Below the pieces are notes generated by a model. The model was not told the origin of the DNA. It saw only the letters and a list, made by a program, of their open reading frames with translations, and made no database searches. A stretch of 64,000 nt of DNA, taken from the NCBI RefSeq assembly GCF_016919405.1, contig NZ_CP070354.1, forward strand, positions 769,711 through 833,710, written 5' to 3'. Numbering within the stretch: position 1 is the first letter of the stretch; each line of letters begins with the position of its first letter. This DNA is from Ensifer sp. PDNC004 (GTDB lineage Bacteria > Pseudomonadota > Alphaproteobacteria > Rhizobiales > Rhizobiaceae). A program made the position numbers and the translations under genes. Below are positions 10,629 through 61,231 of this stretch, in pieces.

Positions 10629-10635
10629 CTCAAAG

Positions 10636-10665
10636 TGATCCGTCAGGACGACAAAGGCGTAGAAA
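10636..10665 (+). promoter_or_regulatory. ECF (RpoE/ChrR) promoter for the DUF2177 gene
   Basis: TGATCC (10636-10641), spacer of exactly 18 nt, TAGAAA (10660-10665). The 12-mer around the -35, GTGATCCGTCAG, is identical to that of the FAD oxidoreductase promoter at 14861. It matches the RpoE consensus known from Rhodobacter sphaeroides (TGATCC-N18-TA-rich). Confidence 0.8.
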
Positions 10666-10694
10666 TGTCGAGAAATGTCCTGGGATACATCGGT

Positions 10695-11096
10695 ATGAAA
10701 ACCATAGTCACCGCCTATCTGGCGACCGGCATCGCCTTTCTGATCCTTGATGCCATCTGGCTTTCGACGATGGCGGATATGCTCTACCGGCCTCTCCTGG
10801 GCGACAAGCTGGCGCCGCAGTTTCATCTGGCGCCAGCCGTTGTGTTCTATCTGATCTATGTTGCCGGCATCGTGTTTTTCGCCGTGATGCCTGTGCTCGA
10901 CGGGGGCGGGCTCGGCAAGGCGGCGCTGAACGGTGCGGTCCTCGGTCTCGTGGCATATGCGACCTACGATCTCACCAACCAGGCGACGCTCAGGGACTGG
11001 CCGCTTTCCGTTACGCTCGCCGATATTGCCTGGGGTGCTTTCGTGACCGCGGTCGGCGCATCAGTCGGCTTTCTCGCGGCGAGCCGCATCGGCTGA
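10695..11096 (+). CDS. DUF2177 inner-membrane protein
   Basis: A 133-residue protein with four predicted membrane helices. It opens MKTIVTAYLATGIAFLILDA-IWL and contains GLVAYATYDLTNQATLRDWP, both typical of DUF2177. Function unknown; the family recurs in photooxidative-stress loci. ATG 10695 is chosen: an earlier ATG at 10665 lies inside the -10 box of the promoter and could not be translated from that transcript. The 3' end overlaps the convergent membrane-protein gene by 36 bp. Confidence 0.8.
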   Translation: MKTIVTAYLATGIAFLILDAIWLSTMADMLYRPLLGDKLAPQFHLAPAVVFYLIYVAGIVFFAVMPVLDGGGLGKAALNGAVLGLVAYATYDLTNQATLRDWPLSVTLADIAWGAFVTAVGASVGFLAASRIG

Positions 11097-11660
11097 CCGT
11101 TCGGCGTCGGCCAGAATGCCTGAGAACAGGATGGCGACGAAGGCTGTGAGCATGCCGGCGCTCATCAGGTTGAGCCGTACCAGGGCGGCGTATTGAACTG
11201 CATTGTACTGCGCGAGCGGCAGCGCATAGACATCGTGCAATAGAAGGAAAACGCCGAAGGCGAGCGCGGTAATCGCGAGGGCGACGACACGTTCCCGCGG
11301 GCGAAACAGCAGAAGCGCGATGACCCCGCACGGAACCAGGAAGATTTCGACTGCAGAAGCCGTGCCGAAGAGCCATGCCGAAAGCACGGTGTTGCCGATC
11401 CCCGCCAGCGGCAGCAGAGCCCGCCCAGCAACATCATTCCGGCGCGCCACGGCCGGCACGGCGAGAAAGAACGGTGTCGACAGGAACGTGAACCAGGCGG
11501 CGGTGATATCAGCACTCACCAGCCAGAAGAGATAGAGTGGGTAAAAGGGCTGGTTCGAGGCGACCAGCAAGGATATCAGGTTCGCCGCAGCGACACGCGG
11601 GTCAGGATGGTGCATATAGGCCCGCACCATCGCGGCGAGGCGTTTAAGGAGGAAGATCAC
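11061..11660 (-). CDS. membrane protein of unknown function
   Basis: A 199-residue integral membrane protein with five or six predicted helices (for example PLYLFWLVSADITAAWFTFL and VVALAITALAFGVFLLL). The GTG start at 11660 overlaps the stop of the preceding gene as GTGA, indicating translational coupling. It is the last gene of the rpoE-chrR-DUF1295/CFA unit. I do not recognise a family with confidence; membrane proteins of this size occur at this place in related loci. It ends 36 bp inside the convergent DUF2177 gene. Confidence 0.7.
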   Translation of the reverse strand: MIFLLKRLAAMVRAYMHHPDPRVAAANLISLLVASNQPFYPLYLFWLVSADITAAWFTFLSTPFFLAVPAVARRNDVAGRALLPLAGIGNTVLSAWLFGTASAVEIFLVPCGVIALLLFRPRERVVALAITALAFGVFLLLHDVYALPLAQYNAVQYAALVRLNLMSAGMLTAFVAILFSGILADAERSADAARREKAD

Positions 11661-45620: not shown

Positions 45621-48593
45621 TTAGAACCTTGCGGTGAGGCCGACTGTGCCTGTCAGTGCATAGTTGGTGCCGAAGTGGCCAAGACCCGTGTTGATCTTGC
45701 CTTGGCCATGAAGCGCGTACTTGCCGTCGCCCCAGCTGTAGGTGCCGCCTAGCCCGATACCGGCCCAAAGATTATCCTGCTCCGCTGCAAGGCGAACGCC
45801 ATCGACTTCGACGCTGTTTTGCGGCAGGAAATCATTGTAGAGATCGGCTATTGCGTAGGCGTGTAACCGGCTGGTCTCTCCGTTTTCGGCTCGCCAGGCA
45901 TTCTCGTAGTCAGCAGAGATACCGAGACGGATCTTGAAATCGTCGCCCTCTTTCAGGGCGACGTTGGTGCCGAAAGCATCGGTGAATTGGCTGTAGTTGA
46001 TCCCAGAATAGACTATCTGCGCCTGTGGCGTCACTCCCCAGTTGGCGTTCAGCGCGATCTTTTGGCCCGCTTCGACACCGAGTGCATAGCCGAAACCGCC
46101 ATTTCCCGCGGTCAGGCCAATCGCCGCAGTCGAGGACTTGAGCGTGCTGTCGTACCACGTCAGGCTTGCTTGACTGTCGATGTAGAAGCCGTCGGTTCCA
46201 TACCACGTCAGAGCGCCCCCCAAACCGTAGCCATCGGTTCTGATCGAGCCATTGCCGAAGATCGAGGAGACTTGCCCGGTGACATTGCCATAGCGTGCGT
46301 AAAGCGAAGCAATCAGGCTTCCGGCCTCGCTGGCGGAAAGTTGGCCCTCGACGCCGGACTGGATTTGCCAGGTGTCGGTATCGAATTGCATGCCGGTGGT
46401 GGAAAACTCGGGGGCCGTCTTTGCTGTACGGCCGGCTATTCGGCTCCAGATAAAACCGCTGTTGTCGGCGGGATCGGTCAGGGCGAACTGGTTGGTTCCC
46501 GTGGTCCAGGAGCGATTGCCAACACGCTGCTGCAAGGTCTCAAGGTCGTTAAAGCTCTGCAGCACCGATGCATAGGCTTCGTAGATGGGCGCGCCGGCTT
46601 GATAGAGAGGCTCGGTCGGTGTTCCCGAGTTGAGCAGCGCTGAACGCAGATACCAGTCGCCATCCGCTGGCGTGCTCATGCCGCCTTGATAAAGGCGATA
46701 GGCATAGGCCCCTGCAACGACGGCTTGGTCGCCCTGGAATACATAATCGCCCAAAAGTGAAAAGCTTCCGCCGGAAGCGCCGCCGATATCGATGATCTTG
46801 ATGCCTTCGTTCGTCTGGGCGCCTGCGCCACCGACATTGATGACACGCACGCTGGTATTGCCCGATGTGTTCCCGGTCACGACGAGGCGATCCGTCTTCG
46901 AAAGGTCATCGCCAAGTACTGTCTCGATTTCGAGTGTGCCACCGCTGCCGGCATAGTTGCCCGCGACCGTCAGCGTGCCGATGGAATTGCCCGGAGCAAT
47001 GGTGCCACCCGCAAAATTGGTCGTGGTTCCTACTCTGCCATCGCCTTGCAGGCGCCCGCCAGTTACGTCGAGGGTACCCCCCAAAATCCCGTCGACGGAC
47101 AAAATACCGTTGGTGATCCGCGACATGCCCGAAAGCCCAGAACTGTCCTGCGTCAGTGTGGTCTGGCCGGTTCCGACCTGATGGACACCACCGCTTCCCG
47201 CGATCGTGCCGTCAAAGTTCACTAGGTCCGATCGATTAAAGGAAAGGGTGCCGTCATTGGCGACATCGCCGATGATACTGCCGTTCGTGCCGCCATTACC
47301 CAACTGCAAGGTGCCTGCATTGATCGTTGTGCCGCCAGCGAAGCTGTTCGCACCGGTCAGGGTCAGAGTTCCCCCGCCCTGCTTGGTCAGGCCACCTGCA
47401 CCGGTAATTTCGGGTGCGATTCCGATATCATGGCCGTTGGTGTCGAAGATGCCGCCGCCAGTGCCAAGGGTGACCTTCTGAGCGCCATAGTTCCTGAAGA
47501 AGTTCTCGTTGGTGCCAATGGCCCGGACAATGCCGCCATCCACTGTAACGCTCGCCGTGCCGAGGCCCCCGCGAAGCCCGCTGGTTTCGAGCACCCCACG
47601 GGCACCAGATGTGCCCAGCACGTTCAGCGTGCCGCTTGCCGCCGCATCCGAAATGCCGACATAGACACCGCTCTTGGCGTAGACCCTTGCGCCATCCTCG
47701 ATGGTCATGGTGCCGACGCCGTAGTTGCCCAATGTTAGGTTTGACCCCGTCATCACCCAGCTCGATCCAGCGCCTGTCACCGTTACGCTGCCGTCGCCAC
47801 CAGAGTTCGCGCCGACATAGCCCTGGTTGCTGGTTATGCTTGCACCGTCTTCGACCCTGAGTGTTCCCTGGGCAAACAGGCCCACGGTGAGCTGGTCCAT
47901 CATCGACCAGGTGGCGCCTGAGCTCAGGAGCGCCTCACCGCGTGCCGAGACACCAACAATCCCGTCGTGGCTCGTCAACTCAGCGCCGTTCGATGCTGTA
48001 ACAGTGCCCGCGTTCCAGTTGCCGATGTTGATTCGTCGCGTGGTCACGACGCGACCGCCGTCGGTGACGTTCAACGTCCCGCTGCCCTCATCGCCCACCC
48101 GAAGATCTTGACTGAGCGTCCAGGACGAAGCGACGCCGAAGCCATCATTGCCCGAGATCGTCACGACGCCCACGCTGTCCGTACCGGCCCCTATGTAACC
48201 AGCCTCGCTGGTAACGAGCCCGCCGCCCAGAATATCCAATGTGCCACGACCAGACTGCCCGGTGACCACGTCTCCAAAATTGTCCCAATGCGTGCCCTGG
48301 CCCAAAACGCTAACGGTACCGACACCTGTGAGGTCGTTGCCGATAATGCCTGTATAATTCGTCAGGATGCCGCCGTTCGAAATCGTCAGGCTCCCGACAG
48401 CGCTGTTGCCGATCACGAGATCCATGCTGCTGTCCACGGCTGCAGGATCCGACGGGTCGGTGTCGCCAGAAAGGATAACCTGTGCTCGTGCTTGGAGCGC
48501 GGTGGCAAGCAAAACGACCACGGGCACCGCGGCGGTCACCATATAAGAGCGAGGCCGGCGCGTGATCCGATTAGGGCGGGGTGAGGTTTGCAT
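45621..48593 (-). CDS. autotransporter with beta-helical passenger
   Basis: A 990-residue type V secreted protein. A long signal peptide with basic extension ends near LQARAQ (about residue 38). The passenger is made of repeated beta-strand units (VGSLTISNGGILTNY, GTLNVTDGGRVV, GTLRVEDGASITS) and a PATR autotransporter repeat (GGLTKQGGGTLTLTGANSF). A linker helix near 700-720 precedes the C-terminal 12-strand barrel (about 730-990), which ends in aromatic Phe (VGLTARF). ATG 48593 is chosen; the frame opens at TTG 48605. No protease catalytic triad is evident, so adhesion or surface function is likely. Confidence 0.92.
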   Translation of the reverse strand: MQTSPRPNRITRRPRSYMVTAAVPVVVLLATALQARAQVILSGDTDPSDPAAVDSSMDLVIGNSAVGSLTISNGGILTNYTGIIGNDLTGVGTVSVLGQGTHWDNFGDVVTGQSGRGTLDILGGGLVTSEAGYIGAGTDSVGVVTISGNDGFGVASSWTLSQDLRVGDEGSGTLNVTDGGRVVTTRRINIGNWNAGTVTASNGAELTSHDGIVGVSARGEALLSSGATWSMMDQLTVGLFAQGTLRVEDGASITSNQGYVGANSGGDGSVTVTGAGSSWVMTGSNLTLGNYGVGTMTIEDGARVYAKSGVYVGISDAAASGTLNVLGTSGARGVLETSGLRGGLGTASVTVDGGIVRAIGTNENFFRNYGAQKVTLGTGGGIFDTNGHDIGIAPEITGAGGLTKQGGGTLTLTGANSFAGGTTINAGTLQLGNGGTNGSIIGDVANDGTLSFNRSDLVNFDGTIAGSGGVHQVGTGQTTLTQDSSGLSGMSRITNGILSVDGILGGTLDVTGGRLQGDGRVGTTTNFAGGTIAPGNSIGTLTVAGNYAGSGGTLEIETVLGDDLSKTDRLVVTGNTSGNTSVRVINVGGAGAQTNEGIKIIDIGGASGGSFSLLGDYVFQGDQAVVAGAYAYRLYQGGMSTPADGDWYLRSALLNSGTPTEPLYQAGAPIYEAYASVLQSFNDLETLQQRVGNRSWTTGTNQFALTDPADNSGFIWSRIAGRTAKTAPEFSTTGMQFDTDTWQIQSGVEGQLSASEAGSLIASLYARYGNVTGQVSSIFGNGSIRTDGYGLGGALTWYGTDGFYIDSQASLTWYDSTLKSSTAAIGLTAGNGGFGYALGVEAGQKIALNANWGVTPQAQIVYSGINYSQFTDAFGTNVALKEGDDFKIRLGISADYENAWRAENGETSRLHAYAIADLYNDFLPQNSVEVDGVRLAAEQDNLWAGIGLGGTYSWGDGKYALHGQGKINTGLGHFGTNYALTGTVGLTARF

Positions 48594-49462
48594 CGTGACG
48601 CTCAAATTGCAGTTGCAGGTGTAAGACTACTTCTGCGTTCGTTATGGTTAATAGAGTGATAATTTGGTTCTTGAAGTGGAGGCCGCGGCTTAAGGGTTGA
48701 TTTAACTGCGGTCGGCCCGAGAGCGGGCAGGAGGTGGCAAAGTCGATCATTCCTCGTTGAGGCGGGCAGTGCCAAGCGATTGCGACCGCTGAAACGCGGG
48801 TTGCGCGCTCGCGCGGGCGCAATTGAAGGTAGGTTGGCAGGAATCAGGTGTGGATGCGACTACGCATGCCGGGACGGCCTTCGTAGCCTCGTGGGTCAGC
48901 GATGCCGACTTGGTATTGGGCGACGTTAAATCGGGATGGTGGCGACGTCTTTGGAGCGCCCACGCCCGCTTTCAAAGGCCATCCGAATAAAACGCCATCT
49001 GGCGCGCACGGGGATAGGTCGGCTCGCAGTCGATCGGGGCCAAGCTGATTTTGCCAACGAGGACATTATGAAGCTGGGCCAACTTCCTTAGCAGTGAGGC
49101 GACCGGGCTCGAAGTTCTCGACACGTCGACACTGACCTTAGAACAAGCGACCGACCGTGTCCTGTCGATCGACAGATCGTCCGGCTACAGCTCGTAGACG
49201 GCCCCGACTACAAAGCGGGGGTGCTGGCAGTTACCCACACGCGGGATCTCTCGCGGCGACGGCTTTGCGCCCGCCTCCTGCCACGGTACCGACCTTCCCC
49301 TTCCGCGGACTTCAACCGAGAAGAAAGGTATCGTCTCTTGGGCAGAGTGAAAGCGGCAACTTTTCTTGTTTCGCGCAACGAAAGAGAACGTCATTCCTAT
49401 AATCTATAAAAAATATGTATTTAATAATTTTCTATCGTAAATGGCGATGAAAGCTCCGAACC
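48594..49462. other. about 870 bp without an intact gene
   Basis: Only unsupported frames. On the plus strand 49099-49197 reads ATGLEVLDTSTLTLEQATDR then VLSIDRSSGYSS and stop, which resembles the C-terminus of a P-loop kinase, but it is too short to assign. The last 60 bp before 49463 are AT-rich and probably carry the promoter of the monooxygenase cluster. Confidence 0.4.
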
Positions 49463-50458
49463 ATGTCCTATCTGCTTAGCCTTCTCGACAAGAGCCCCGT
49501 CGATCCGGGGAGGACGCCCACGGAGGCCCTTCACGCGACCGCCCAGCTCGCCGCGAAGGCGGAGGAATGGCGCTATCATCGCTTCTGGGTCGCAGAACAC
49601 CACAACATTCAGGGGCTAGCGAGTTCGGCGCCGGAAACCCTGATCGCCTATCTGCTGGCGAAAACGTCGAAGATCCGCATCGGATCCGGCGGCGTCATGC
49701 TGCAGCACTACAGCGCCTACAAGGTTGCCGAGAGTTTCAATCTTCTCGCCAGCCTTGCGCCATCGCGCGTCGACCTCGGCGTCGGCAAGGCGCCGGGCGG
49801 ATTTCCGCTTTCGACCAGGGCGCTGCAGGCAGGGATAGATCCCGCGCTCCGACCGAATTTCGCCGAGCAGCTGGCGGATCTCAATCGTTATCTGTTGCCG
49901 CAGGAGGCACAACACTCCGACCTGCTTGCCACACCGCTGCCGCCTGTCGCGCCGGAACGCTTCCTGCTCGGAGCAAGCGTCGACAGCGCCGTCCTTGCCG
50001 CCGAAAAGGGCTGGAAGCTGGTTTTCGCCGGCCATCTCAACGGCGATCCCGACAATCTGCAAAAGACGTTTGATGCCTATGAGCGGGCGACTGGCGGTGA
50101 GCGACCGCTGCTCGCGCTCGCGGCCTTCGCCGCCGACAACGAGGAACGGGCGCGCCAGCGCGTCGCCGACCTGAAGATTTTCAAGGTGTTCTTCGGCAAT
50201 GGCCAGAGCGTCAATGTCGGCAGCGAGGAGCAGGCCGCCGACTATGCCCGCCAGGCCGGCTTTAGCGATTACCGCATCGAGGAAAAGACACCGAGCGTGC
50301 TCACCGGCACGCCGCGGCAGGTGCGCCAGGAACTCGACGCGCTGCACCGCCGCTACGGTGTCGAGGAATTCGTCATTGAAACGCCCGCGGTCGGCGCCGC
50401 CGAGCGCCTCGCCTCGATCGAACTCATCGCACGCGAGCGGCTGTCGCTCGCCGCCTGA
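49463..50458 (+). CDS. LLM-class flavin-dependent oxidoreductase (MsnO8-like)
   Basis: A 331-residue luciferase-like monooxygenase of the short family. YLLSLLDKSPVDPGRTPTEAL, RFWVAEHHNIQGLASSAPET, IRIGSGGVMLQHYSAYKVAE and LGVGKAPGG are the family's FMN-binding strands. FMNH2 must come from a reductase not encoded nearby. First gene of the putative S-compound cluster; the next gene begins 22 nt later. Substrate unknown. Confidence 0.9.
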   Translation: MSYLLSLLDKSPVDPGRTPTEALHATAQLAAKAEEWRYHRFWVAEHHNIQGLASSAPETLIAYLLAKTSKIRIGSGGVMLQHYSAYKVAESFNLLASLAPSRVDLGVGKAPGGFPLSTRALQAGIDPALRPNFAEQLADLNRYLLPQEAQHSDLLATPLPPVAPERFLLGASVDSAVLAAEKGWKLVFAGHLNGDPDNLQKTFDAYERATGGERPLLALAAFAADNEERARQRVADLKIFKVFFGNGQSVNVGSEEQAADYARQAGFSDYRIEEKTPSVLTGTPRQVRQELDALHRRYGVEEFVIETPAVGAAERLASIELIARERLSLAA

Positions 50459-50479
50459 TCACTCCGGGAAGGATTTGTC

Positions 50480-51829
50480 ATGAGCAAGAAGAACGTCACT
50501 TTCGGCATCATGCTGCAGGGACCGGGCGGACACATGAACGCCTGGAAACATCCAAGCGGGCCGGCCGATGCGAGCGTCAACTTTTCGTTCTTCGTCGACA
50601 CGGCGCGCAAGGCGGAGGCCGCCGGCATCGCCTTCGCCTTCGTCGCCGATGGCCTCTACATCAACGAACAGTCGATCCCGCATTTCCTCAACCGCTTCGA
50701 GCCGCTGACGATCCTGTCGGCGCTTGCCGCCTCGACCTCGCAGATCGGTCTCGTTGGCACGGTTTCGACCTCCTACAGTGACCCGTTCACGGTCGCCCGC
50801 CAGTTCGCCTCGCTCGATCTGATCAGTGGCGGCCGTGCCGGCTGGAACGCGGTGACCTCGCCGCTCGAAGGGTCTGGCCGCAACTACGGGCGCGAGCATC
50901 CGGAACACGAGCTGCGCTACGAAATCGCCGACGAATATCTCGATGCGATCAAGGGGCTGTGGGACAGCTGGGACGACGACGCCTTCGCGCGCGACCGCGC
51001 AACCGGCGTCTATGCCGACAAGACGAAGCTGCGCCGGCTCAATCACAAGGGGCGCTTCTTCCGGATCGAGGGACCGCTCAACATCGAGCGTTCCAGGCAG
51101 GGTCAACCGGTCGTCTTCCAGGCGGGAGCGTCCGATTCCGGTGTCCGCCTTGCGGGAAAACATGCCGACGCGGTGTTCACCAATGGCGGGCCGATCGAGG
51201 ACGCCAAGGTCTTCTACAAGCAAGTCAAGCAAAGTGCGGTGGCACAGGGACGCCGTGCTGGCGAGGTCGGCATCTTTCCCGGCATCGGCCCGATCGTCGG
51301 CGCCACGGCCGAAGAGGCCGAGGCGAAATACCGGGCCATCCGCGATCTGGTGACGATCGAGGAAGCGCTGCTCTATCTCGGCCGGTTCTTCGATCATCAC
51401 GACTTCAGCGCCTATCCGCTCGACGCGCCGTTCCCCGATATCGGTGACATCGGCAAGAACAGCTTTCGCGCGACGACCGACCGCATCAAGAAGACGGCGC
51501 GTGAAACAGGCGCGAGCCTGCGCGAGATCGCGCTCGACGTCGCAACGCCGAGGACGACCTTCATCGGCACGGCTGAGCATATTGCAGGCGAGATCATCCG
51601 CTGGATCGACGAGGATGCGGCCGACGGCTTCATCCTCGGCTTCCCCGTGATCGCCGAAGGGCTCGCTGATTTCGCCGCATATGTGCTGCCGATCCTCGAA
51701 GGCCGCGGATACTTCAAGCGCGGGCTCGAAGGCGCAACGCTGCGCGATCACCTGGGACTGCCGTATCGCGAAAGCCGTTATGCGGCGCCGGCGGTGGAAG
51801 TCGAGCGGGGGAGGGCCGTCGGGACCTGA
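50480..51829 (+). CDS. FMN-dependent monooxygenase, NtaA/SnaA/DmoA (YxeK/YtnJ-like) family
   Basis: A 449-residue two-component flavin monooxygenase. MLQGPGGHMNAWKHPSGPAD near the start, NRFEPLTILSALAASTSQIG, the TSYSDPFTVARQFASLDLIS strand-helix and GWNAVTSPL are typical of the long subfamily, which includes nitrilotriacetate, dimethylsulfide and N-acetyl-S-alkylcysteine monooxygenases. Clustering with an acetyltransferase, an M20 deacylase and an amino-acid importer points to the last kind. GGAAGGA precedes ATG 50480. Confidence 0.92.
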   Translation: MSKKNVTFGIMLQGPGGHMNAWKHPSGPADASVNFSFFVDTARKAEAAGIAFAFVADGLYINEQSIPHFLNRFEPLTILSALAASTSQIGLVGTVSTSYSDPFTVARQFASLDLISGGRAGWNAVTSPLEGSGRNYGREHPEHELRYEIADEYLDAIKGLWDSWDDDAFARDRATGVYADKTKLRRLNHKGRFFRIEGPLNIERSRQGQPVVFQAGASDSGVRLAGKHADAVFTNGGPIEDAKVFYKQVKQSAVAQGRRAGEVGIFPGIGPIVGATAEEAEAKYRAIRDLVTIEEALLYLGRFFDHHDFSAYPLDAPFPDIGDIGKNSFRATTDRIKKTARETGASLREIALDVATPRTTFIGTAEHIAGEIIRWIDEDAADGFILGFPVIAEGLADFAAYVLPILEGRGYFKRGLEGATLRDHLGLPYRESRYAAPAVEVERGRAVGT

Positions 51830-51852
51830 CGGTTCCGGCGGAGGTTGTGTCC

Positions 51853-53040
51853 ATGAACCTTATTCTCACCGACACCCAGAGATCCGCAGCCGTCGAGCGT
51901 GGCCTTGCCAGCTTCATCGACGAGATTGTCGCCATCCGGCGCGATCTGCATCAGCATCCCGAGCTCGCCTTTCAGGAGAGACGCACGAGCGACCTCGTTG
52001 CCGACCGGCTGTCTGCCTGGGGCTATGAGGTCAGCCGCGGCATTGCCCGGACCGGGATTGTCGCCACCCTCCGGCGCGGGCGGAGCGAAAAGGCGATCGG
52101 CCTTCGCGCCGACATGGACGCCTTGCCGATCGAGGAAGCGACGGGTCTTGCCTATGCCAGCCGCCACAAGGGCGTGATGCACGCCTGCGGCCATGACGGC
52201 CATACGGCGATCCTGCTCGCAGCCGCCCGGTTTCTGGCAGGGGAGGGACGTTTCGACGGCACGCTGCGGCTGATCTTCCAGCCCGCCGAAGAGATCGGCG
52301 CCGGCGCGCGCAGCATGCTATCGGAGGGTTTGCTCGAACGCTTCCCGGTCGAAGCGATCTTCGGCCTGCACAACTGGCCGGGCGTAGCCACGGGACGTTT
52401 CGGCTTCGTCGAGGGGCCGGCCATGGCCTCGGTCGACCAAGCCAACATCACTGTTGTCGGCAAGGGTGGGCACGGGGCTGAGCCGCACCTGACCGTCGAC
52501 CCGGTGCTGGCGACGGCATCACTGATTACGGCGCTCCAGAGCCTCGTTTCGCGCAATGTCGACCCGCAGCATATGGCTGTCGTCACCGTCGGCTCCATCC
52601 GCGGCGGCCAGGCGTCGAACGTCATCCCCGAAAGCGTCTCGTTGAAATTGACCCTGCGGGCCTTCAATGACGACGTCCGCCGCCTGCTTGGCGAGCGTGT
52701 CCAGGCGCTGGCGCGGGCGCAGGCCGAGAGTTTTGGCGCAAGGGCCGAGATCGACTATCGGCTCGGCTTTCCGGCGCTGGTCAACCACGCCGCCGAAACG
52801 GACTTTGCCCGCGATGTCGCGCTCAAGGCCTTAGGCCCCGACGCGATCATTTCAGATTTCAAGCCGCGCACGGCCAGCGAGGACTTCGCGTTCTTCCTCG
52901 AGGAGAAAGCCGGCAACTACGCCTTCGTCGGCAACGGCGACAGCGCGGCGCTCCACAGCGCTGAATACGATTTCAACGACGCGATCATCGCACCGGCCGC
53001 CCGCTACTGGGTTCGGTTGGTGGAAACTTTTCTCGCGTGA
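51853..53040 (+). CDS. M20-family amidohydrolase/deacylase
   Basis: A 395-residue metallo-amidohydrolase (hippurate hydrolase/YxeP type). IRRDLHQHPELAFQE near the start, GLRADMDALPIEE with the metal Asp, MHACGHDGHTAILLAAA with Cys/His ligands, LIFQPAEEIGAGA with catalytic Glu, and the dimerisation domain VGKGGHGAEPH. Such enzymes remove N-acyl groups from amino acids. ATG 51853 lies 9 nt after GGAGG; the frame opens at GTG 51847. It overlaps the acetyltransferase region (possible GTGA start at 53037). Confidence 0.92.
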   Translation: MNLILTDTQRSAAVERGLASFIDEIVAIRRDLHQHPELAFQERRTSDLVADRLSAWGYEVSRGIARTGIVATLRRGRSEKAIGLRADMDALPIEEATGLAYASRHKGVMHACGHDGHTAILLAAARFLAGEGRFDGTLRLIFQPAEEIGAGARSMLSEGLLERFPVEAIFGLHNWPGVATGRFGFVEGPAMASVDQANITVVGKGGHGAEPHLTVDPVLATASLITALQSLVSRNVDPQHMAVVTVGSIRGGQASNVIPESVSLKLTLRAFNDDVRRLLGERVQALARAQAESFGARAEIDYRLGFPALVNHAAETDFARDVALKALGPDAIISDFKPRTASEDFAFFLEEKAGNYAFVGNGDSAALHSAEYDFNDAIIAPAARYWVRLVETFLA

Positions 53041-53063
53041 CCACCCAAGGGATGGCGAAAGAC

Positions 53064-53615
53064 ATGAGCGACACGTTTCTCTACACCACGCCCCTCGATC
53101 CCCGCGCCAAGCCGCTCATCGACGAGCTGATCGTCGAATATGACAGCCGCTATGGCAATTATTTCAGCGAGGAGGGGGCCGCGGCCGAGATGAACCGCTA
53201 TCCGGCGGAAGCCTTCGCCTCGCCGTCCGGCAATTTCGTGCTTCTGATGCGCAACGGCGAAGCCATCGGCGGCGGCGCCTTCAAGGCCTATGACGAGCAG
53301 ACCGCCGAGTTCAAGCGCATCTGGACCCGTTCCGACCTCAGGCGTCAGGGTCTGGCGCGCAAGGTGCTGTTCGAACTCGAAGCGCAGGCTGCGCGTCAAG
53401 GCTATTCGCGCGTCTATCTAACGACCGGCTTCCGCCAGCCGGAGGCGGTCGGGCTCTATCTCGCCAACGGATACACAGCACTCTTCGATGTCGAGGCCGA
53501 TCCGGAGATCTACAAGACGCTACCCTTCGAGAAAAATATCTCCCACCTGGTAGCCACGCTGGCGTTTCTGGCCGACGTGCCGCCGCCACAGCCCAAGGCG
53601 GCAAGCCATCCCTGA
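53064..53615 (+). CDS. GNAT-family N-acetyltransferase
   Basis: A 183-residue acetyltransferase. Acetyl-CoA motif RSDLRRQGLARKVLFELEAQ (R-R-x-G-x-A) and the GLYLANGYTALFDVEA end strand are present; LDPRAKPLIDELIVEYDSRY opens the protein. ATG 53064 is preferred from family length; GTG 53037, which overlaps the M20 stop as GTGA, or ATG 53052 are alternatives. Proposed to acetylate the amino group of the imported amino acid, opposed by the M20 deacylase after oxidation. Confidence 0.88.
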   Translation: MSDTFLYTTPLDPRAKPLIDELIVEYDSRYGNYFSEEGAAAEMNRYPAEAFASPSGNFVLLMRNGEAIGGGAFKAYDEQTAEFKRIWTRSDLRRQGLARKVLFELEAQAARQGYSRVYLTTGFRQPEAVGLYLANGYTALFDVEADPEIYKTLPFEKNISHLVATLAFLADVPPPQPKAASHP

Positions 53616-53677
53616 TGCCGACCGATCGTGCCGTCTGCTGCGCCGGCCGCCAACCGATTTCTGAGAGAGGATCCACC

Positions 53678-55453
53678 ATGGCAGTTTTGAGCGATCTTGC
53701 CGGCGCGCCCGGTGTCAGCCGGACGAGCGAGCCGAACCCGGGCTATTCCCATTACCGCATCGTACCGGCGCGCCATCCCGCCCGCGCGCTCGGCACGCTG
53801 TTTGCAGCGCTCGCCATTTCGGGCGTGCTCTATTCGGTGCTGACCAATCCGCGCTGGGGTTGGCCGGTCTTTGCCGAATGGTTCTTCGCCGAGCCGGTGC
53901 TGGCGGGCCTTGGCCGCACCCTGCTTCTGACGGCGCTTGCGACCGTCTCCGGCTCGTTGCTCGGGACCGCCCTTGCGCTTGCCCGTGTATCCAGGTCGCC
54001 GCTGCTTGCCGGCCTGTCCTTCGGCTACATCTGGCTGCTGCGCTCGATCCCGCTGATCGTGCTTTTGCTGGTGCTCAACAATCTCGGCTACCTCTACGAG
54101 ACCATCGCGATCGGCGTGCCCTTCACCGACACGGTCTGGCTGAACTATCCGACGACACAGCTCCTGACGCCCTTCGCTGCGGCCTTCCTTGGGCTCACAC
54201 TCAACCAGTCGGCCTTTTTCGCGGAGATCGTGCGCGGCGGCATTCTCGCCGTAGACCAGGGCCAGCACGAGGCGGCCGCAGCCCTTGGTCTGCCGCGTCG
54301 GCGCCAGGCGTTCCGTATCGTGCTGCCGCAGGCCATGCGCTCGATCCTGCCGACCGGTTTCAACGAGATCATCGGTCTCGCCAAGGGCACCTCGATGGTC
54401 TACGTGCTGGCGCTGCCTGAGCTGTTCTACACGGTGCAGGTCATCTATCGCCGCAATCTCGAGGTCATTCCGCTCCTGATGGTGGCGACCGTCTGGTACC
54501 TGGTGATCATGACCGGGCTCTCGATCGCCCAGCATTACATCGAGCGCTATTATTCGCGCGGCGCGGTGCGCAATCCGGCGCCGCTGCCATTCCAGGCGCT
54601 TGTTGCACGCTTCCGTCAGCCGCTGCCGGAGGTCGTCCGCCCGGCCGCCGCAAGCGCAAAGGTCGGCTTCGGCGATGCCCAGGCGCTTCGCGCCGGCGGC
54701 GCGGTGCATGTGCACGGGATCTCGAAGAGCTTCGGGTCGCTGAAGGTCCTAGACCGGGTCGAACTGAATTTGCCGGCGGGCAGCGTCACGGCGATCCTCG
54801 GACCGTCCGGCTCAGGCAAATCCACGTTGCTCAGGGCCATCAACCATCTGGAGCGCGTCGATGACGGCTTCATCGCGATCGACGGCGACCTCGTCGGCTA
54901 CAGCCGGAAGGGCGACACGCTCTATGAACTCAAGGAAAAAGACATCCTGAAACGGCGCGCCGATATCGGCATGGTGTTCCAGAACTTCAACCTCTTCCCC
55001 CATCTGACCGTGCTCGAAAACCTGATCGAGGCGCCCATTCACGCGCGCGGCCTTGAGCGCGCGGAGGCGGTGCGCCTTGCCCAGGAACTGCTCGCCCGCA
55101 TCGGCCTCAGCGACAAGGTCGACGCCTATCCGCGCCAGCTCTCGGGTGGGCAGCAGCAACGCGTCGCGATCGCCCGCGCGCTGGCGCTGCGCCCGAAGGT
55201 GCTGCTGTTCGACGAGCCGACCTCGGCGCTCGACCCGGAACTCGTCGGCGAAGTGCTCGATGTTATCAAGGAGCTTGCGCTCACCGGCACGACGCTTGTG
55301 ATCGTCACCCACGAAACCGGCTTTGCCCGAGAGGTTGCCGATACGGTCGTCTTCATGGAGGCGGGCCGCGTGTTGGAGGCAGGCCCCCCGGCCCAGGTCT
55401 TTACCGAGGCGAAGCATCCACGCACCCGCGAATTTTTGGCGCGCGTTCTCTAA
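53678..55453 (+). CDS. amino-acid ABC transporter, fused permease and ATPase
   Basis: A 591-residue protein. Residues about 40-310: HisM/His-Glu-Gln permease with about five or six helices (GLGRTLLLTALATVSGSLLG, EAAAALGLPRRRQAFRIVLP EAA loop). Residues about 345-591: ATPase with ILGPSGSGKSTLLRAINHLE, MVFQNFNLFPHLTVLENL, LSGGQQQRVAIARALA, VLLFDEPTSALDPEL and VTHETGFAREVA. Such fusions occur in polar amino-acid uptake systems of rhizobia. ATG 53678 follows AGAGAGGA. Works with the binding proteins encoded next. Confidence 0.93.
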   Translation: MAVLSDLAGAPGVSRTSEPNPGYSHYRIVPARHPARALGTLFAALAISGVLYSVLTNPRWGWPVFAEWFFAEPVLAGLGRTLLLTALATVSGSLLGTALALARVSRSPLLAGLSFGYIWLLRSIPLIVLLLVLNNLGYLYETIAIGVPFTDTVWLNYPTTQLLTPFAAAFLGLTLNQSAFFAEIVRGGILAVDQGQHEAAAALGLPRRRQAFRIVLPQAMRSILPTGFNEIIGLAKGTSMVYVLALPELFYTVQVIYRRNLEVIPLLMVATVWYLVIMTGLSIAQHYIERYYSRGAVRNPAPLPFQALVARFRQPLPEVVRPAAASAKVGFGDAQALRAGGAVHVHGISKSFGSLKVLDRVELNLPAGSVTAILGPSGSGKSTLLRAINHLERVDDGFIAIDGDLVGYSRKGDTLYELKEKDILKRRADIGMVFQNFNLFPHLTVLENLIEAPIHARGLERAEAVRLAQELLARIGLSDKVDAYPRQLSGGQQQRVAIARALALRPKVLLFDEPTSALDPELVGEVLDVIKELALTGTTLVIVTHETGFAREVADTVVFMEAGRVLEAGPPAQVFTEAKHPRTREFLARVL

Positions 55454-55527
55454 CAAAGCTTCCCGTCCACGTCCCGATGGCGGAGCTTTGCCACCGTCGG
55501 CAATCAGAGATTGAAAAGGAGACTGAT

Positions 55528-56472
55528 ATGACTATTCTCAACACTGCAAAGTTGCTTCTGGCCGGCGCCGTCACGGCGCTGACCCTCGGACTTGGCTCCG
55601 TCCACGCCGAGGAGAAATTCGACCTCAGCCCCGACACATCGAACCGCGTGCGCGCGGAAAAGAACGACGCGGCGATCAAGGCGATCGCTGCCGACTTCAA
55701 GTTCTTCAATCCGGGCAAGTTTACCGTCGCCATCAATCCCTGGGATCCGCCGATTGCGACCTACGCCTCGGATTCGAAGACCGTGGTCGGCGCCGACCCC
55801 GATGTTGCGTCGTTGCTGGCCGACAGCTTCGGGCTCGAGCTCGAACTTGTGCCCGTCGCCTGGGCCGATTGGCCGCTCGGCGTTGCCTCAGGCAAATATG
55901 ACGCGGTCATCAGCAACGTCACGGTCACCGAGGAGCGCAAGGAGAAGTTCGATTTCTCCACCTACCGCAAGGACGTGCTGGGCTTCTTCGTCAAGTCCGA
56001 CAGCAAGATCGAGGCGATCAAGGAACCAAAGGACGTCGCCGGGTTGAAGGTGATCACCGGTGCCGGCACCAACCAGGAAAAGATCATTCTCGAATGGGAC
56101 CGGCAGAACGTCGCCGCCGGGCTGAAGCCGATCGAGGTGCAGTATTACGACGACCGCGCCGCCGGCGACCTCGCCTTGCAGTCGGGCCGCGCGGACGTCG
56201 AGTTCAACCCGAATGCGACCCGCGCCTATGCCGCATCGATCAAGAACAACACCAAGGTGGTCGGCATCGTCAGCGGCGGCTGGCCGCTAACCGCCGAGAT
56301 CGCCGTCACCAGCCGCAAGGGCGGTGGCCTGGCCGATGCCGTCACCATCGCACTCAACGACCTGATCAAGAACGGCAAATACGGTGAAGTGCTGAAGCGT
56401 TGGAGCCTCGGCGCGGAAGCCGTCGATGCTGCTCAGACCAACCCGCCCGGCCTCCCGAAGAGCGGTTCCTGA
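55528..56472 (+). CDS. amino-acid ABC transporter substrate-binding protein 1
   Basis: A 314-residue periplasmic protein (SBP_bac_3). Signal peptide to about VHA-EEK (residue 27). After it: PGKFTVAINPWDPPIATYAS, VGADPDVASLLADSFGLELE, GKYDAVISNVTVTEERKEKF and GAGTNQEKIILEW. ATG 55528 follows AAAAGGAG. It is about 60% like the next gene by eye, so the two arose by tandem duplication. The TNPPGLPK end is shared. Confidence 0.93.
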   Translation: MTILNTAKLLLAGAVTALTLGLGSVHAEEKFDLSPDTSNRVRAEKNDAAIKAIAADFKFFNPGKFTVAINPWDPPIATYASDSKTVVGADPDVASLLADSFGLELELVPVAWADWPLGVASGKYDAVISNVTVTEERKEKFDFSTYRKDVLGFFVKSDSKIEAIKEPKDVAGLKVITGAGTNQEKIILEWDRQNVAAGLKPIEVQYYDDRAAGDLALQSGRADVEFNPNATRAYAASIKNNTKVVGIVSGGWPLTAEIAVTSRKGGGLADAVTIALNDLIKNGKYGEVLKRWSLGAEAVDAAQTNPPGLPKSGS

Positions 56473-56539
56473 TCCTAGCCCAACGGATCGGCGGCGCCGC
56501 CGCCGGTCCGGTTTCTGCATTCATCCGGAGACCAAAAGC

Positions 56540-57475
56540 ATGATTGGCAAGTCCGCCTTTCGCATCCTTGTCGCCGCAGCAGCGGCAACCCTTCTACAGG
56601 TCGCTTCGGCGACGGCCGATGCCGGCTTCGATCTCAGCCCGGAACAGCCGGGGCGCATCCGGGCGGCCCGCAATGAGACGGCGGTTGCCGCCGTCCCGGC
56701 GGACTTCAAGTTCGTGACGCCGGGCAAGTTCACCGTGGGGGTCAGCCCCGGTGGGCCGCCGCTTGCCACTTACGCCACCGATGCGCGTACGGTCATCGGC
56801 GCCGATCCGGAATATGCCGGCGCCATCGCCAACAGCTTGGGATTGGAACTCGAGCTCGTGCCGACCGCCTGGATCGACTGGCCACTTGGGTTGACGTCGG
56901 GCAAGTACGACGCGGTCATCTCCAATGTCGGCGTCACGGAACAGCGCAAGGAGAAGTTCGATTTCTCGACCTATCGCCAGGGGCTGCACGGCTTCTTCGT
57001 CAAGGCGGATAGCGGGATTGCGGTGATCAAGGAACCGAAGGATGCGGCGGGCCTCAGGATCATCGTCGGCGCCGGCACCAATCAGGAGCGCATCCTGCTC
57101 AAATGGAGCGAGGAGAATGTCGCTGCGGGTCTGAGACCGCTGGAGCTGCAATATTACGACGACGAGGCGACGAGCCTGGTGGCGCTCTCATCCGGTCGCG
57201 CCGACGTCATCGTCCAGCCGCATGCGCAGCTCGTCTTCATCGCCGCACGTGACAAGAACATCAAGCGGGTCGGGACCTTGAGCGCCGGCTGGCCCGAGCG
57301 CTCGGACGTGGCGATCACCACCCGCAAGGGGAGCGGCCTTGCCAATGCGCTGACGATCGCCACCAACGGCCTCATCGAAAGCGGCACCTATGCCAAGGTG
57401 CTCGCGCGTTGGCACCTGCAGGAGGAGGCGCTGCCGAAATCCGAGACCAATCCGCCCGGCCTTCCGAAGTTCTAA
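56540..57475 (+). CDS. amino-acid ABC transporter substrate-binding protein 2
   Basis: A 311-residue paralogue of the preceding binding protein. Signal peptide to about ATA-DAGF (residue 27). Shared blocks: FDLSPEQPGRIRAARNET, PGKFTVGVSPGGPPLATYAT, GKYDAVISNVGVTEQRKEKF, GAGTNQERILLKW and TNPPGLPKF. Differences cluster in pocket regions (INPWDPP versus VSPGGPP; EFNPNATRAYA versus IVQPHAQLVFIA), so ligand choice probably differs. It shares one permease-ATPase with its twin. Confidence 0.93.
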   Translation: MIGKSAFRILVAAAAATLLQVASATADAGFDLSPEQPGRIRAARNETAVAAVPADFKFVTPGKFTVGVSPGGPPLATYATDARTVIGADPEYAGAIANSLGLELELVPTAWIDWPLGLTSGKYDAVISNVGVTEQRKEKFDFSTYRQGLHGFFVKADSGIAVIKEPKDAAGLRIIVGAGTNQERILLKWSEENVAAGLRPLELQYYDDEATSLVALSSGRADVIVQPHAQLVFIAARDKNIKRVGTLSAGWPERSDVAITTRKGSGLANALTIATNGLIESGTYAKVLARWHLQEEALPKSETNPPGLPKF

Positions 57476-57486
57476 GGAGAAATGGC

Positions 57487-58518
57487 GTGACGCGGAACAA
57501 GATATCGATCAGCCATATCGGCTTCCTCAGCCCCGGCAACTACCCCGTGGACGATCCGTTGGATGGACTCGAAAAGACCTTGGCACTCCTGGAATATGGC
57601 GAGGCGCTCGGGTTTGCGAGCGCTTGGGTCCGCCAGCGGCATCTGGAGCCCGGCATCTCCTCGGCCGCCGCCTTCCTCGCGGCCGCCACCCAGAGGACAA
57701 GTCGCATCGAGCTCGGTACAGCGGTCATTCCGATCGGTTACGAAAACCCCTATCGACTGGCGGAAGACCTTTCGACTGTCGACGTGCTGTCGCGCGGTCG
57801 CCTGAATGTCGGCCTGAGCGCCGGCAAGCCGCCGCATCTCGATCTTATCGGGCCTCTCGCCTTTGACGGCGACTGGTCGGCCTACGACTTTTCGCACCAG
57901 CGGGTACTGCGCTTTCAGGAAAACCTACGTAGCGGCTCGCTGGGCGACGACGACACGCTGATCAAGACGCCCTTTGGCGTGAAACGCCCGCGGCTGCAGC
58001 CGCATGCTAAGGGGCTCGCCGATCGGCTGTGGTATGGCGGCGGGTCGCTGCGTTCGGCCGCCTGGGCCGGAAGCCACGGCTTCAATCTGTTGATCGGCAA
58101 CGTCACGACCGGCGAGGAGACGGACGCGTTTTTCGTGGCGCAGGCCCGCCAGCTTGCGCTCTATCGATCCTCGGGCGGCGAGGGCAGGCGCGTGGCGCTT
58201 GGCCGGGTCATCCTTCCCCTTGATAGTGCGGATCCAAGGACGCGCAAGCAGTATCTCGACTACGCGATCGGACGTACAGATCGAACTCTGGCGCCGCAGG
58301 GGGAACGACGAACGCTCTATGCCCGCGACCTCGTCGGTACCTCGCAGGAGATCCTGGAACGGTTGCATGCAGACCCGATTTTGCCGCATGTCCACGAACT
58401 GAGGCTCGAGCTTCCGTACGAATTCGAGGATGAGGATTACCGCCAGATTGTCCATGACTTTGTAACACATATCGCTCCGGAGCTCGGGTGGTCGCCTGCC
58501 GACCAAAGGGCGGCCTAG
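57487..58518 (+). CDS. LLM-class flavin-dependent oxidoreductase
   Basis: A 343-residue luciferase-like monooxygenase. KISISHIGFLSPGNYPVDDP, LEYGEALGFASAWVRQRHLE, SRIELGTAVIPIGYENPYRL and LSRGRLNVGLSAG give the fold. It is a third, distant LLM type in the same cluster. The start is GTG 57487 with AAGGAGA upstream, 11 nt after the second binding protein's stop. Substrate unknown. Confidence 0.9.
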   Translation: MTRNKISISHIGFLSPGNYPVDDPLDGLEKTLALLEYGEALGFASAWVRQRHLEPGISSAAAFLAAATQRTSRIELGTAVIPIGYENPYRLAEDLSTVDVLSRGRLNVGLSAGKPPHLDLIGPLAFDGDWSAYDFSHQRVLRFQENLRSGSLGDDDTLIKTPFGVKRPRLQPHAKGLADRLWYGGGSLRSAAWAGSHGFNLLIGNVTTGEETDAFFVAQARQLALYRSSGGEGRRVALGRVILPLDSADPRTRKQYLDYAIGRTDRTLAPQGERRTLYARDLVGTSQEILERLHADPILPHVHELRLELPYEFEDEDYRQIVHDFVTHIAPELGWSPADQRAA

Positions 58519-58524
58519 AGAACA

Positions 58525-59163
58525 ATGGCACCGAGCGCATCAAGCCTTGCAAGCAGGACAATCAAAGTGACAAAGACAATCGATTACTTCTTCTCGATCG
58601 GCTCGCCGTGGTCCCATATTGGTTTCGATGGCCTGGTCGACCTTGCGACCCGTCATGGTGCTGAGATCAGGCCCTATTTGACCACTGTTGTCGAAGAAAA
58701 CGGGGGCATCTTCTCGCGAAATCGGCCGGATGCACGCCGTGCCTATGGCGCACGAGACCTCAAACGCTGGGCCGGTGTGCGAGGGAAATCACTGCTTCTG
58801 GAAAACCGGCCGGCGCTCGGTGATCCGACGCCAGCATCACTGATCGTGATCGCCGCTTTTCTCGATGAGAAGGACTGGACCGGCCTCACGAGCGCCTTGC
58901 AGCATGCGTTTTGGGCTGAGGCCAAGGATATCGGCAATCCAAATGTCCGTGGCGCGATTGCGCACGAAACGGGGCTCGACGGTGCGGCGCTGGTTCGGCG
59001 CGAAACGGATGATGACGTCAAGGCGAAATGGGGGAAAGATCGCGAACATGCCTTAGCGAGCGGCGTTTTTGGTTTCCCGACCTATCGCTATGACGGTGAA
59101 CTCTATTGGGGACAGGACAATTTGCCGTTCCTGGAGCGCCACCTGGCCGGTGATCGGCCATAG
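58525..59163 (+). CDS. kappa-GST/2-hydroxychromene-2-carboxylate isomerase-like (DsbA-fold) protein
   Basis: A 212-residue thioredoxin-fold protein. YFFSIGSPWSHIGFDGLVDL near the start has S-P-W-S in place of a CxxC, as in HCCA isomerases and kappa-class GSTs that use Ser with glutathione. ASGVFGFPTYRYDGELYWGQ is the closing thioredoxin-fold signature with cis-Pro. Start may be ATG 58525 or GTG 58567; neither has a strong site. In the cluster it may use glutathione or act on a thiol product. Confidence 0.85.
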   Translation: MAPSASSLASRTIKVTKTIDYFFSIGSPWSHIGFDGLVDLATRHGAEIRPYLTTVVEENGGIFSRNRPDARRAYGARDLKRWAGVRGKSLLLENRPALGDPTPASLIVIAAFLDEKDWTGLTSALQHAFWAEAKDIGNPNVRGAIAHETGLDGAALVRRETDDDVKAKWGKDREHALASGVFGFPTYRYDGELYWGQDNLPFLERHLAGDRP

Positions 59164-59202
59164 TTCGTAAGCGATCCTCTGTCCTCAAATGAGAATGCGA
59201 CC

Positions 59203-60393
59203 ATGAATGACAAAGCAAACCTCACCGTCGAACCGGGTCCACAAACACAGCTGATCAAGGCGGGATATGATCCCGACAGCCAGCGCGGCTTTATCAATCC
59301 CCCTGTCGTTCACGGAACGACAGTGCTCTTTCCCGATGCGCGGACGATGGAAACGCACGGGCAGAAATATACCTACGGGACGCGCGGGACGCCGACCACG
59401 GATGCACTTTGCGACGCAATCAATGAACTGGAGGGCGCAGCCGGCACGATCCTTGTGCCCTCCGGACTTGCGGCGGTCACAGTGCCATTGCTTGCCTATC
59501 TCGCTCCCGGCGACCACGCGCTGATCGTCGATTCCGTCTATGGCAATGTCCGCCAGTTCTGCGACGTCATGTTGGCGCGCCTTGGCATCGAAGTGGAGTA
59601 TTATGCCCCCTCGCTCGGGGCCGAAATCGAGACCCTCTTCAAGCCGAATACGCGGCTCGTGCACACCGAGTCACCCGGTTCCAACACGTTCGAGATCCAG
59701 GATATTCCCGCGATCGCCGCGGTTGCCCACAGTCGTGGTGCAATCGTGATGATGGACAACACCTGGGCGACGCCGCTCTATTTCAGGCCACTGGACTTCG
59801 GCGTTGATATTTCCATCCAGGCGTCCACCAAATATCCGGCCGGCCACGCGGATATCCTGTTCGGAACAGTTTCTGCGAACGTTGAGCATTGGCCGCGGTT
59901 GAAGGAAGCGAACGGGTTGCTGGGCCTTTGCGCTGCACCTGATGATGCCTACCAGGTACTTCGCGGCCTGCGGACACTTGGAATCCGGCTTGAGCGCCAT
60001 CAGAAAAGCGCGCTTGAGATCGCCACGTGGCTTGAAGGTCGCGACGACGTCGAACGTGTGCTGCACCCCGCGCTGCAGACTTTCCCGGGGCATGACATCT
60101 GGAAGCGCGATTTCAAGGGGGCCACCGGTGTCTTCTCGTTTGTCCTTCGTGTCGAGCATGAGGATCAGTTCAAGACGAAAGCACAGGCCTTTTTGGACGC
60201 GTTATCCATATTCGGCTTGGGCTATTCCTGGGGCGGATTTGCCTCGCTCGCACTTCATGTCAATCTTGACGAACGCAAGGTGACGCCCATACCGACCGAA
60301 GGGCCCGTCCTGCGCCTGCAAGTAGGATTGGAAGATGTAAACGACCTCAAAGCGGATCTGGAGCGAGCGTTTTCTGCCGCTCGCGCAGCCTAG
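59203..60393 (+). CDS. metC: cystathionine beta-lyase (C-S lyase)
   Basis: A 396-residue PLP enzyme of the Cys/Met metabolism family. PPVVHGTTVLFPDARTMETH, YTYGTRGTPTTDAL (phosphate-binding Tyr/Arg), ESPGSNTFEIQDI, MMDNTWATPLYF and the PLP Lys about 210 in IQASTKYPAGHADI are present; FGLGYSWGGFASL is typical of beta-lyases. It splits C-S bonds of cystathionine or related thioethers to thiol, pyruvate and ammonia. It ends the cluster; its stop codon TAG lies at the left edge of the IS5 element, and the codon is kept because the target CTAG is shared. Confidence 0.92.
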   Translation: MNDKANLTVEPGPQTQLIKAGYDPDSQRGFINPPVVHGTTVLFPDARTMETHGQKYTYGTRGTPTTDALCDAINELEGAAGTILVPSGLAAVTVPLLAYLAPGDHALIVDSVYGNVRQFCDVMLARLGIEVEYYAPSLGAEIETLFKPNTRLVHTESPGSNTFEIQDIPAIAAVAHSRGAIVMMDNTWATPLYFRPLDFGVDISIQASTKYPAGHADILFGTVSANVEHWPRLKEANGLLGLCAAPDDAYQVLRGLRTLGIRLERHQKSALEIATWLEGRDDVERVLHPALQTFPGHDIWKRDFKGATGVFSFVLRVEHEDQFKTKAQAFLDALSIFGLGYSWGGFASLALHVNLDERKVTPIPTEGPVLRLQVGLEDVNDLKADLERAFSAARAA

Positions 60394-60402: not shown

Positions 60403-60819
60403 TCATAAACTTTGACACCAAATTCTCGTGGCGACGAGTTTTACAGCGGCGAGGTAGTTTTCGGGGCGCTTGTCGTATCGGGTTGCGATGCCACGGAACT
60501 GTTTGATCCTATTGAAGAAACGCTTTACGAGGTTGCGCTGCCGGTAAACCCACTGCGAGAAGACGAAGGTGCCCTTGCGGTTTGTCTTCGGCGGGATGTT
60601 GGCCCAAGCCTTTCGTTCGGCAGCCTTGGCCCGAATGGCGTTGGTATCATAGCCCTTGTCGGCCAACAGGATATTTCCCTCATCGAGCTCGTCCGTCAGC
60701 GCGTCAGCCGCGGTGCAGTCGGCGACTTGGCCGCCGGTCAGACGGAGGGAAACGGGACGCCCTTCCACGTCGACGAGCGCGTGGATTTTGCTTGTAAGCC
60801 CGCCGCGGGAACGTCCCAT
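60403..60819 (-). CDS. IS5-family transposase, frame B (DDE C-terminal part)
   Basis: MGRSRGGLTSKIHALVDVEG opens this frame, then LLADKGYDTNAIRAKA with the second catalytic Asp, and RQRNLVKRFFNRIKQFRGIA with the Y/R-x2-E-type end motif region (catalytic Glu replaced in pattern by the N-x2-KRFFNR stretch common to this group). It is made as a fusion with frame A by a -1 shift at A6G (60846-60840). Confidence 0.88.
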   Translation of the reverse strand: MGRSRGGLTSKIHALVDVEGRPVSLRLTGGQVADCTAADALTDELDEGNILLADKGYDTNAIRAKAAERKAWANIPPKTNRKGTFVFSQWVYRQRNLVKRFFNRIKQFRGIATRYDKRPENYLAAVKLVATRIWCQSL

Positions 60820-61166
60820 GCCTCCATCGTCTCCATCCCCTTTTTTCCCGTGGCCGCATGCTGGTGAACACGGACACAGGTCGAGTCGATCATGACGATA
60901 TCGCCATCGTAAGCCTCGGAAACCGCCTCAAGAAGCTTGTCCCAGACACCGGCCTTCCGCCAACGGACGAAGCGGTTGTAGCAGGTGGTCGGCGGACCGT
61001 AGCGCTCCGGGATTTCCGCCCAAGGTGAACCAGTCCGGAGCCGCCAAAGGATGCCATTCAGCACCCGCCGGTCATCGACCCGAGGAACGCCGCGGGGTTT
61101 GTTGGGCAACAGTGGTGACAGGATCGACCATTCGTGATCGGTAAGTTCGTAGCGGCGACGCGTCAT
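60738..61166 (-). CDS. IS5-family transposase, frame A (N-terminal part)
   Basis: MTRRRYELTDHEWSILSPLL and GVPRVDDRRVLNGILWRLRT form the DUF4096-like N-terminal domain; GSPWAEIPERYGPPTTCYNR follows, and VMIDSTCVRVHQHAATGKKG holds the first catalytic Asp just before the slippery A6G. Alone it would end in non-native sequence after GKKG. ATG 61166 has GGGAGG upstream. Confidence 0.88.
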   Translation of the reverse strand: MTRRRYELTDHEWSILSPLLPNKPRGVPRVDDRRVLNGILWRLRTGSPWAEIPERYGPPTTCYNRFVRWRKAGVWDKLLEAVSEAYDGDIVMIDSTCVRVHQHAATGKKGMETMEAWDVPAAGLQAKSTRSSTWKGVPFPSV

Positions 61167-61231
61167 AGAGCCTCCCTTATCCGGAAGCCTTGAATCACGA
61201 CACGCGAAAAAAACCAAGCAATTTTATGGGT

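Follow-up and report, generated by a model that had tools for sequence, protein, structure and literature searches.

A conserved ten-gene operon in Ensifer

In the window analysed here, a 64,000-nucleotide stretch of Ensifer sp. PDNC004 DNA (contig NZ_CP070354.1, positions 769,711 to 833,710) situated on the contig labelled C3 of a 6.78 Mb genome of three contigs, positions 49463–60393 are filled by ten intact + strand open reading frames (ORFs, taken from the ORF list of the window), which form a candidate operon for the salvage of S-modified cysteine. After the gene starts had been refined to agree with the annotation of orthologues on a plasmid of Ensifer adhaerens (L009), the intergenic gaps measured 11–74 bases. 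Pfam and NCBIfam searches assigned three Bac_luciferase proteins, an M20 and a GNAT protein, a fused permease-ATPase, two SBP_bac_3 proteins, a DSBA-family protein and a Cys/Met pyridoxal phosphate (PLP) enzyme; the intact ORFs and domain matches bear out the original prediction of ten co-oriented genes of these families.

The first gene (49463–50458; all ten on the + strand) codes for a CmoO-type luciferase-like monooxygenase (LLM) of the MsnO8 family (TIGR03558, 330.8 bits, cut-off 166.95), a predicted N-acetyl-S-alkylcysteine S-oxygenase, and gene 2 (50480–51829) for a CmoJ/YtnJ-type LLM of the NtaA/DmoA family (TIGR03860, 495.5 bits, cut-off 279.7) with predicted sulfoxide C-S cleavage activity. 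They are followed by an M20 N-acylamino-acid deacetylase of the SndA/YtnL type (gene 3, 51853–53040, PF01546), a GNAT N-acetyltransferase predicted to acetylate S-substituted cysteine (gene 4, 53064–53615, PF00583), and a polar amino-acid ATP-binding cassette (ABC) importer made up of a fused permease-ATPase (gene 5, 53678–55453, PF00528 and PF00005) and two family 3 periplasmic binding proteins (gene 6, 55528–56472, and gene 7, 56540–57475, both PF00497). The last three genes code for a third LLM (gene 8, 57487–58518, PF00296), a DSBA-family protein with the fold of kappa-class glutathione S-transferases (GST) and 2-hydroxychromene-2-carboxylate isomerases (gene 9, 58567–59163), and a MetC-type PLP C-S beta-lyase (gene 10, 59203–60393, PRK05967, 714 bits, cut-off 649).

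The gene order recurs in named plasmids and in genomes from several families, showing that the cluster is not a chance grouping; the operon is real and conserved. Among 44 loci, with ORF labels assigned from phmmer comparisons to the window proteins plus three additional references, the order of genes 1 to 6 was found, with variations, across several families. The neighbourhoods of 50 rows of gene-2 homologues (ORFs of at least 380 aa; "near" meaning within about 9.5 kb) were then compared, the counts indicating linkage and not frequency because 20 of the regions had been picked for holding gene 8. In the 32 rows scoring at least 500 bits to gene 2, a gene-1 homologue was near in 31, an M20 gene in 28 and an ABC-transporter homologue in 32, and in all 28 non-Bacillota rows of this group a GNAT and a binding-protein homologue were near. 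The sole row lacking a nearby gene 1 (1/32) is a Paenibacillus locus, whose genome has CmoO beside another CmoJ copy. Among rows of 340–499 bits, gene 1 was near in 1/9, and that locus also has a row above 500 bits. At E 1e-110, gene 2 was detected in 30 of 398 sampled genomes of the phylum (own genome included), some with weaker matches of 43–47%, and its closest named proteins are from Ensifer. Some match to the operon DNA was present in 401 plasmid records, 16 of which carried at least 80% of the operon. Two model strains, Rhizobium johnstonii 3841 and R. etli CFN 42, also carry the operon, and in both a gamma-glutamylcyclotransferase gene (ChaC by Pfam in the former) ends the operon run (L149:22973-23740 and L150:12752-13522, respectively). 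A Hyphomicrobiales contig from a metagenome-assembled genome (L018) carries three gene-2-like labels and no gene-1 label.

Relation of the core genes to the Bacillus ytm operon

The ytm operon of Bacillus inaquosorum (L012) was located by scanning genomes with the sequence of the solved YtnJ (96% to YtnJ), and its genes were named from their position and from YtnJ; the YxeK row (L132) was named from locus content. Gene 1 shares 43–45% identity with CmoO of this operon and gene 3 shares 41% with its M20 protein, YtnL (BLASTP). The best matches of genes 1, 2 and 3 in the B. inaquosorum genome all belong to the ytm operon, within 5 kb of one another: gene 1 scored 247.5 bits against the ytm copy (next 208.3), gene 2 scored 527.5 bits (55%) against ytnJ and 423.1 bits (43%) against the yxe-locus enzyme, and gene 3 scored 305.7 bits against the ytm-operon M20 and 255.6 against that of the yxe locus in a one-way search.

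Trees of the two monooxygenases, both rooted at the midpoint, placed them with the same operon. The gene-2 tree was built from 37 rows of 380–480 aa and at least 340 bits, which left out L102, L104, L112 and L114, among others, by ORF length, and it replaced an unclear 47-row tree containing very long rows. Gene 2 falls into a 29-row group together with the Bacillus CmoJ rows (support 95/97), and the YxeK row lies outside this group, beyond branches of 100/100 support, which ruled out gene 2 as a YxeK-type enzyme. The description of gene 2 as an "NtaA/YxeK-like" monooxygenase thus holds for the NtaA family and has to be changed to CmoJ-like for the rest, a relabelling that alters which substrates and products are predicted. 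In a tree of 39 rows, gene 1 grouped with Bacillus CmoO (support 100/99); four other Bacillus MsnO8 proteins and one MsnO8 paralogue of the own genome fell outside (L006_6, the only own-genome paralogue taken in at a limit of E 1e-15; L003_0, labelled as a paralog, is the window gene itself). The CmoO group includes one row without CmoJ nearby, L117, where positions 7174–13068 hold CmoO, a GNAT, a gene-8 homologue, another LLM, an NtaA-family enzyme and a flavin reductase. None of the genes in this small cluster is labelled as an importer, and the cluster is possibly a separate cysteine-conjugate module.

The composition of the ytm operon, as given in the accessible part of PMC6323116, resembles the present one in having relatives of CmoO, CmoJ and SndA/YtnL, a GNAT, a polar amino-acid ABC importer and two binding proteins. 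The duplicated binding protein, originally counted as an addition over Bacillus, is therefore already found there (tcyJ and tcyK; same partial source), and one of the "two further LLM monooxygenases" is, by best match and tree, the CmoO partner of the ytm operon, leaving gene 8 as the only additional LLM. The Ensifer operon differs in its permease and ATPase being fused, in its GNAT not being detectably similar, in the absence of a ribR-like gene among the ten, and in the extra genes 8 (LLM), 9 (kappa-GST fold) and 10 (MetC type).

The binding proteins were compared with HisJ, whose numbering defines the site positions. All 52 aligned cluster proteins (50 from relatives, with at least 250 bits and fewer than 400 aa, plus genes 6 and 7) keep the carboxylate-site Arg and lack the alpha-amino-site Asp. 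The missing Asp would suit N-acetylated ligands and could be taken as a weak hint of them. It is also absent in 9 of the 22 other family 3 proteins of this genome (24 proteins from 25 loci were compared, two of them being gene 6 itself) and thus says little about the ligands of genes 6 and 7; Bacillus TcyJ, TcyK and YxeM lack it likewise.

Proposed pathway and competing explanations

Taken together, the gene content, the tree placement of genes 1 and 2, the best-match relation of gene 3 and the conserved clustering point to an operon that probably serves the salvage of S-alkylcysteine (cysteine S-conjugates) and corresponds, in a Gram-negative organism and with additions specific to the lineage, to the B. 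subtilis ytm/cmo operon. All of the reactions, the identity of the substrates and their use as a sulfur source are inferred from this direct basis; given the orthology of the core genes with the CmoO/CmoJ system, the same chemistry is expected here. In the accessible part of PMC10863075, the S-alkylcysteine route comprises acetylation, conversion to the sulfoxide by CmoO, cleavage by CmoJ to an aldehyde and a sulfenic acid, reduction and deacetylation; there its authors also regard the pathway as widespread among soil bacteria and relate S-alkylcysteine to the breakdown of S-alkylglutathione. Deacetylation of N-acetylcysteine by YtnL is described in part of PMC12757645.

In the Ensifer operon, S-substituted cysteine, or its N-acetyl form, would be imported by the two binding proteins and the fused permease-ATPase, and the S-substituted cysteine would be N-acetylated by the GNAT (gene 4). 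The CmoO-type enzyme (gene 1) would then make the sulfoxide, and the CmoJ-type enzyme (gene 2) would split the C-S bond, giving an aldehyde and N-acetylcysteine sulfenic acid. After reduction of the sulfenic acid, for which gene 9 with glutathione is one candidate reductant, the M20 deacetylase (gene 3) would convert N-acetylcysteine to cysteine. Gene 8 would most probably act as an additional oxygenase on other S-substituents, and in a side branch gene 10 may release pyruvate, ammonia and thiol from free S-conjugates by beta-elimination. Salvage of S-modified cysteine by acetylation, oxygenation and deacetylation, coupled to a polar amino-acid importer, was what the original prediction proposed, and gene content and the relation to the ytm operon argue for it. 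Its order "deacetylate, cleave" does not apply to the core, because CmoJ breaks the C-S bond before deacetylation (PMC10863075, accessible part) and the PLP lyase would belong to the side branch.

Several observations weigh against the salvage pathway or its kinship with the ytm operon. A single clade of all 28 CmoO-near rows was disfavoured in the gene-2 tree (p-AU 0.019, approximately unbiased test), which requires two label changes; one of these is a Paenibacillus row labelled as lacking CmoO but nested among CmoO-near rows, in whose genome another copy of CmoJ, accompanied by CmoO, is found at a distance of about 10 kb. Among rows below 340 bits, which stand outside the comparison, gene 1 was near in 4/9 (L112, L119 and L122, each also with CmoJ, and L117 without it). 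In BLASTP, the GNAT of gene 4 matched neither Bacillus YtmI/SnaA (E up to 10) nor any yxe-locus ORF, suggesting that the acetylation step may have been recruited independently or have diverged. No Flavokinase (ribR-like) and no FMN-reductase domain was detected by Pfam among the ten operon proteins; the L012 ytm operon includes a gene carrying the Flavokinase domain. In our judgement the RibR-type riboflavin kinase is accessory and dispensable for the chemistry, and, in favour of the salvage pathway, a gene for the FMN (flavin mononucleotide) reductase MsuE, a flavin supplier required by such enzymes, lies 3' of the cluster in several Rhizobiaceae. Further, the top solved structure for gene 2 by score was 3sdo (646.5 bits), deposited as a nitrilotriacetate monooxygenase, followed by the YtnJ structures (529 bits), and the top NCBIfam names of genes 3 and 5 were ectoine-related (DoeB2 and EhuA), both below cut-off.

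These last two matches, together with the functional breadth of the LLM, M20 and GNAT families and the lack of the usual alpha-amino Asp in the binding proteins, would also suit an operon for the breakdown of an unrelated N-acylated amino acid, an ectoine-type compound or an NtaA-like chelator in place of sulfur. We regard this as very improbable, since the trees place genes 1 and 2 with CmoO and CmoJ and the Asp is lacking in many other family 3 proteins of the genome as well. Ranking below it is an operon of the B. subtilis yxe/scm type for S-(2-succino)cysteine (2SC), in which gene 2 alone would cleave N-acetyl-2SC directly and the other LLM enzymes would have other roles. That system shares the importer, the M20 enzyme and the logic of acetylation, oxygenation and deacetylation (PMC9706529, accessible part), and YxeP was the top solved structure for gene 3 (256.8 bits) in a list with no entry named YtnL. 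The separation of gene 2 from the YxeK row in the tree, its higher score to CmoJ and the presence of a CmoO-type partner make it very improbable here; the yxe locus of B. inaquosorum (L132) has no gene labelled as CmoO.

Additional genes, upstream region and significance

Compared with Bacillus, genes 8, 9 and 10 are genuine additions; for the kappa-GST-like protein and the C-S lyase this agrees with what had been predicted. Gene 8 is absent from the Bacillus operon and showed a weak relation to TIGR04027 (90.5 bits, far below the cut-off of 412.9). Homologues of gene 1 and full gene 2 were found in 16 of the 20 fetched gene-8 regions; L118, one of the other four, ends before gene 1. At E 1e-60, gene 8 was detected in 8/297 sampled genomes of the order and 18/297 of the family (own genome included). 

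Kappa-class GST and 2-hydroxychromene-2-carboxylate isomerase are the closest known system for gene 9 only. The kappa-GST fold is present, and the motif SxGSPW, whose serine we take to be the glutathione-site serine, is invariant in 20 rows. A more far-reaching proposal is that the rhizobial CmoO/CmoJ core has been extended into a line leading from glutathione conjugates to cysteine (kappa-type GST of gene 9, ChaC where related operons have it, importer, acetyltransferase, CmoO, CmoJ and deacetylase), with gene 8 as a new functional LLM type, acting either on a different range of substrates as a second S-oxygenase or on the CmoJ-released aldehyde as an oxidase; we consider this speculative and rather unlikely.

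Gene 10 is the second MetC-type copy in the genome and resembles MetC/cysteine-S-conjugate beta-lyases in exceeding the PRK05967 cut-off. It carries STKYPAGH, presumably the PLP-lysine segment, and differs in being set apart from the other copy (on C2, 70% identical) by a 100/99 branch and in being operon-linked in only 3 of 34 loci examined, plus the window. An E. adhaerens soil isolate has an alliinase/S-alkylcysteine lyase with 48-kDa subunits (PMC3159909, accessible part), for which gene 10 is only a weak candidate because its mass is 43.1 kDa and no sequence of the purified enzyme is given there for comparison. That the operon mainly serves gene-10 beta-elimination of plant cysteine sulfoxides (alliin, S-methylcysteine sulfoxide), with secondary oxygenases, is the least probable explanation despite this known activity and the distinctness of gene 10, since gene 10 is rarely linked to an otherwise conserved core and the size and dimer state of the purified alliinase fit it poorly.

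The presumed promoter/operator region (49393–49450, +), 5' of gene 1, is AT-rich (GC 21% compared with 63% in the operon) and contains TATAATCTATAAA...TATGTATTTAAT; stretches 5' of gene 1 in relatives are partly similar to it. A pattern derived jointly from the window and its relatives occurred once in the window, by construction, and in 0 of 100 shuffles. In the genome, a pattern fitted on the window together with close relatives matched only at its own site, a further point against sulfur salvage, and the dyad TAATCTATAAA..TTTATAGATTA gave 0 genome matches at up to 3 mismatches. With no second genome copy of the upstream element, no sulfur regulon is shown, and this idea was dropped. Promoter and terminator scans gave no more matches than in shuffles. 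Upstream of the operon (45621–48605, −) lies an ORF of 994 aa with repeats and, by eye, an autotransporter-like C-terminal part. Directly 3' of gene 10 (60403–61217, −), two overlapping ORFs look like a two-part IS5-type transposase, their translations likewise judged by eye.

Among the matches listed in a search of the open-access literature (titles and abstract starts), no description of the operon in rhizobia was found. In the accessible parts of three reports, sulfonate transporters and one polar-amino-acid transporter are up in NGR234 nodules, sameness with the present transporter not being established (PMC3732241), pRL100220, not mapped to this operon, is in an attachment and nodule list (PMC11406972), and RHE_PC00008 is listed among R. 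etli extracellular-proteome transporters (PMC9855851). The last may be the gene-6 orthologue, a guess from gene order.

The operon represents a known pathway in a new and enlarged Gram-negative form. Its core is ordinary for soil bacteria, and its interest lies in genes 8 and 9 and the glutathione link. The Bacillus pathway would thereby be carried over to Gram-negative plant-associated bacteria, including the model strains R. johnstonii 3841 and R. etli CFN 42, with gene 8 as a possibly new enzyme type and a possible link to glutathione.

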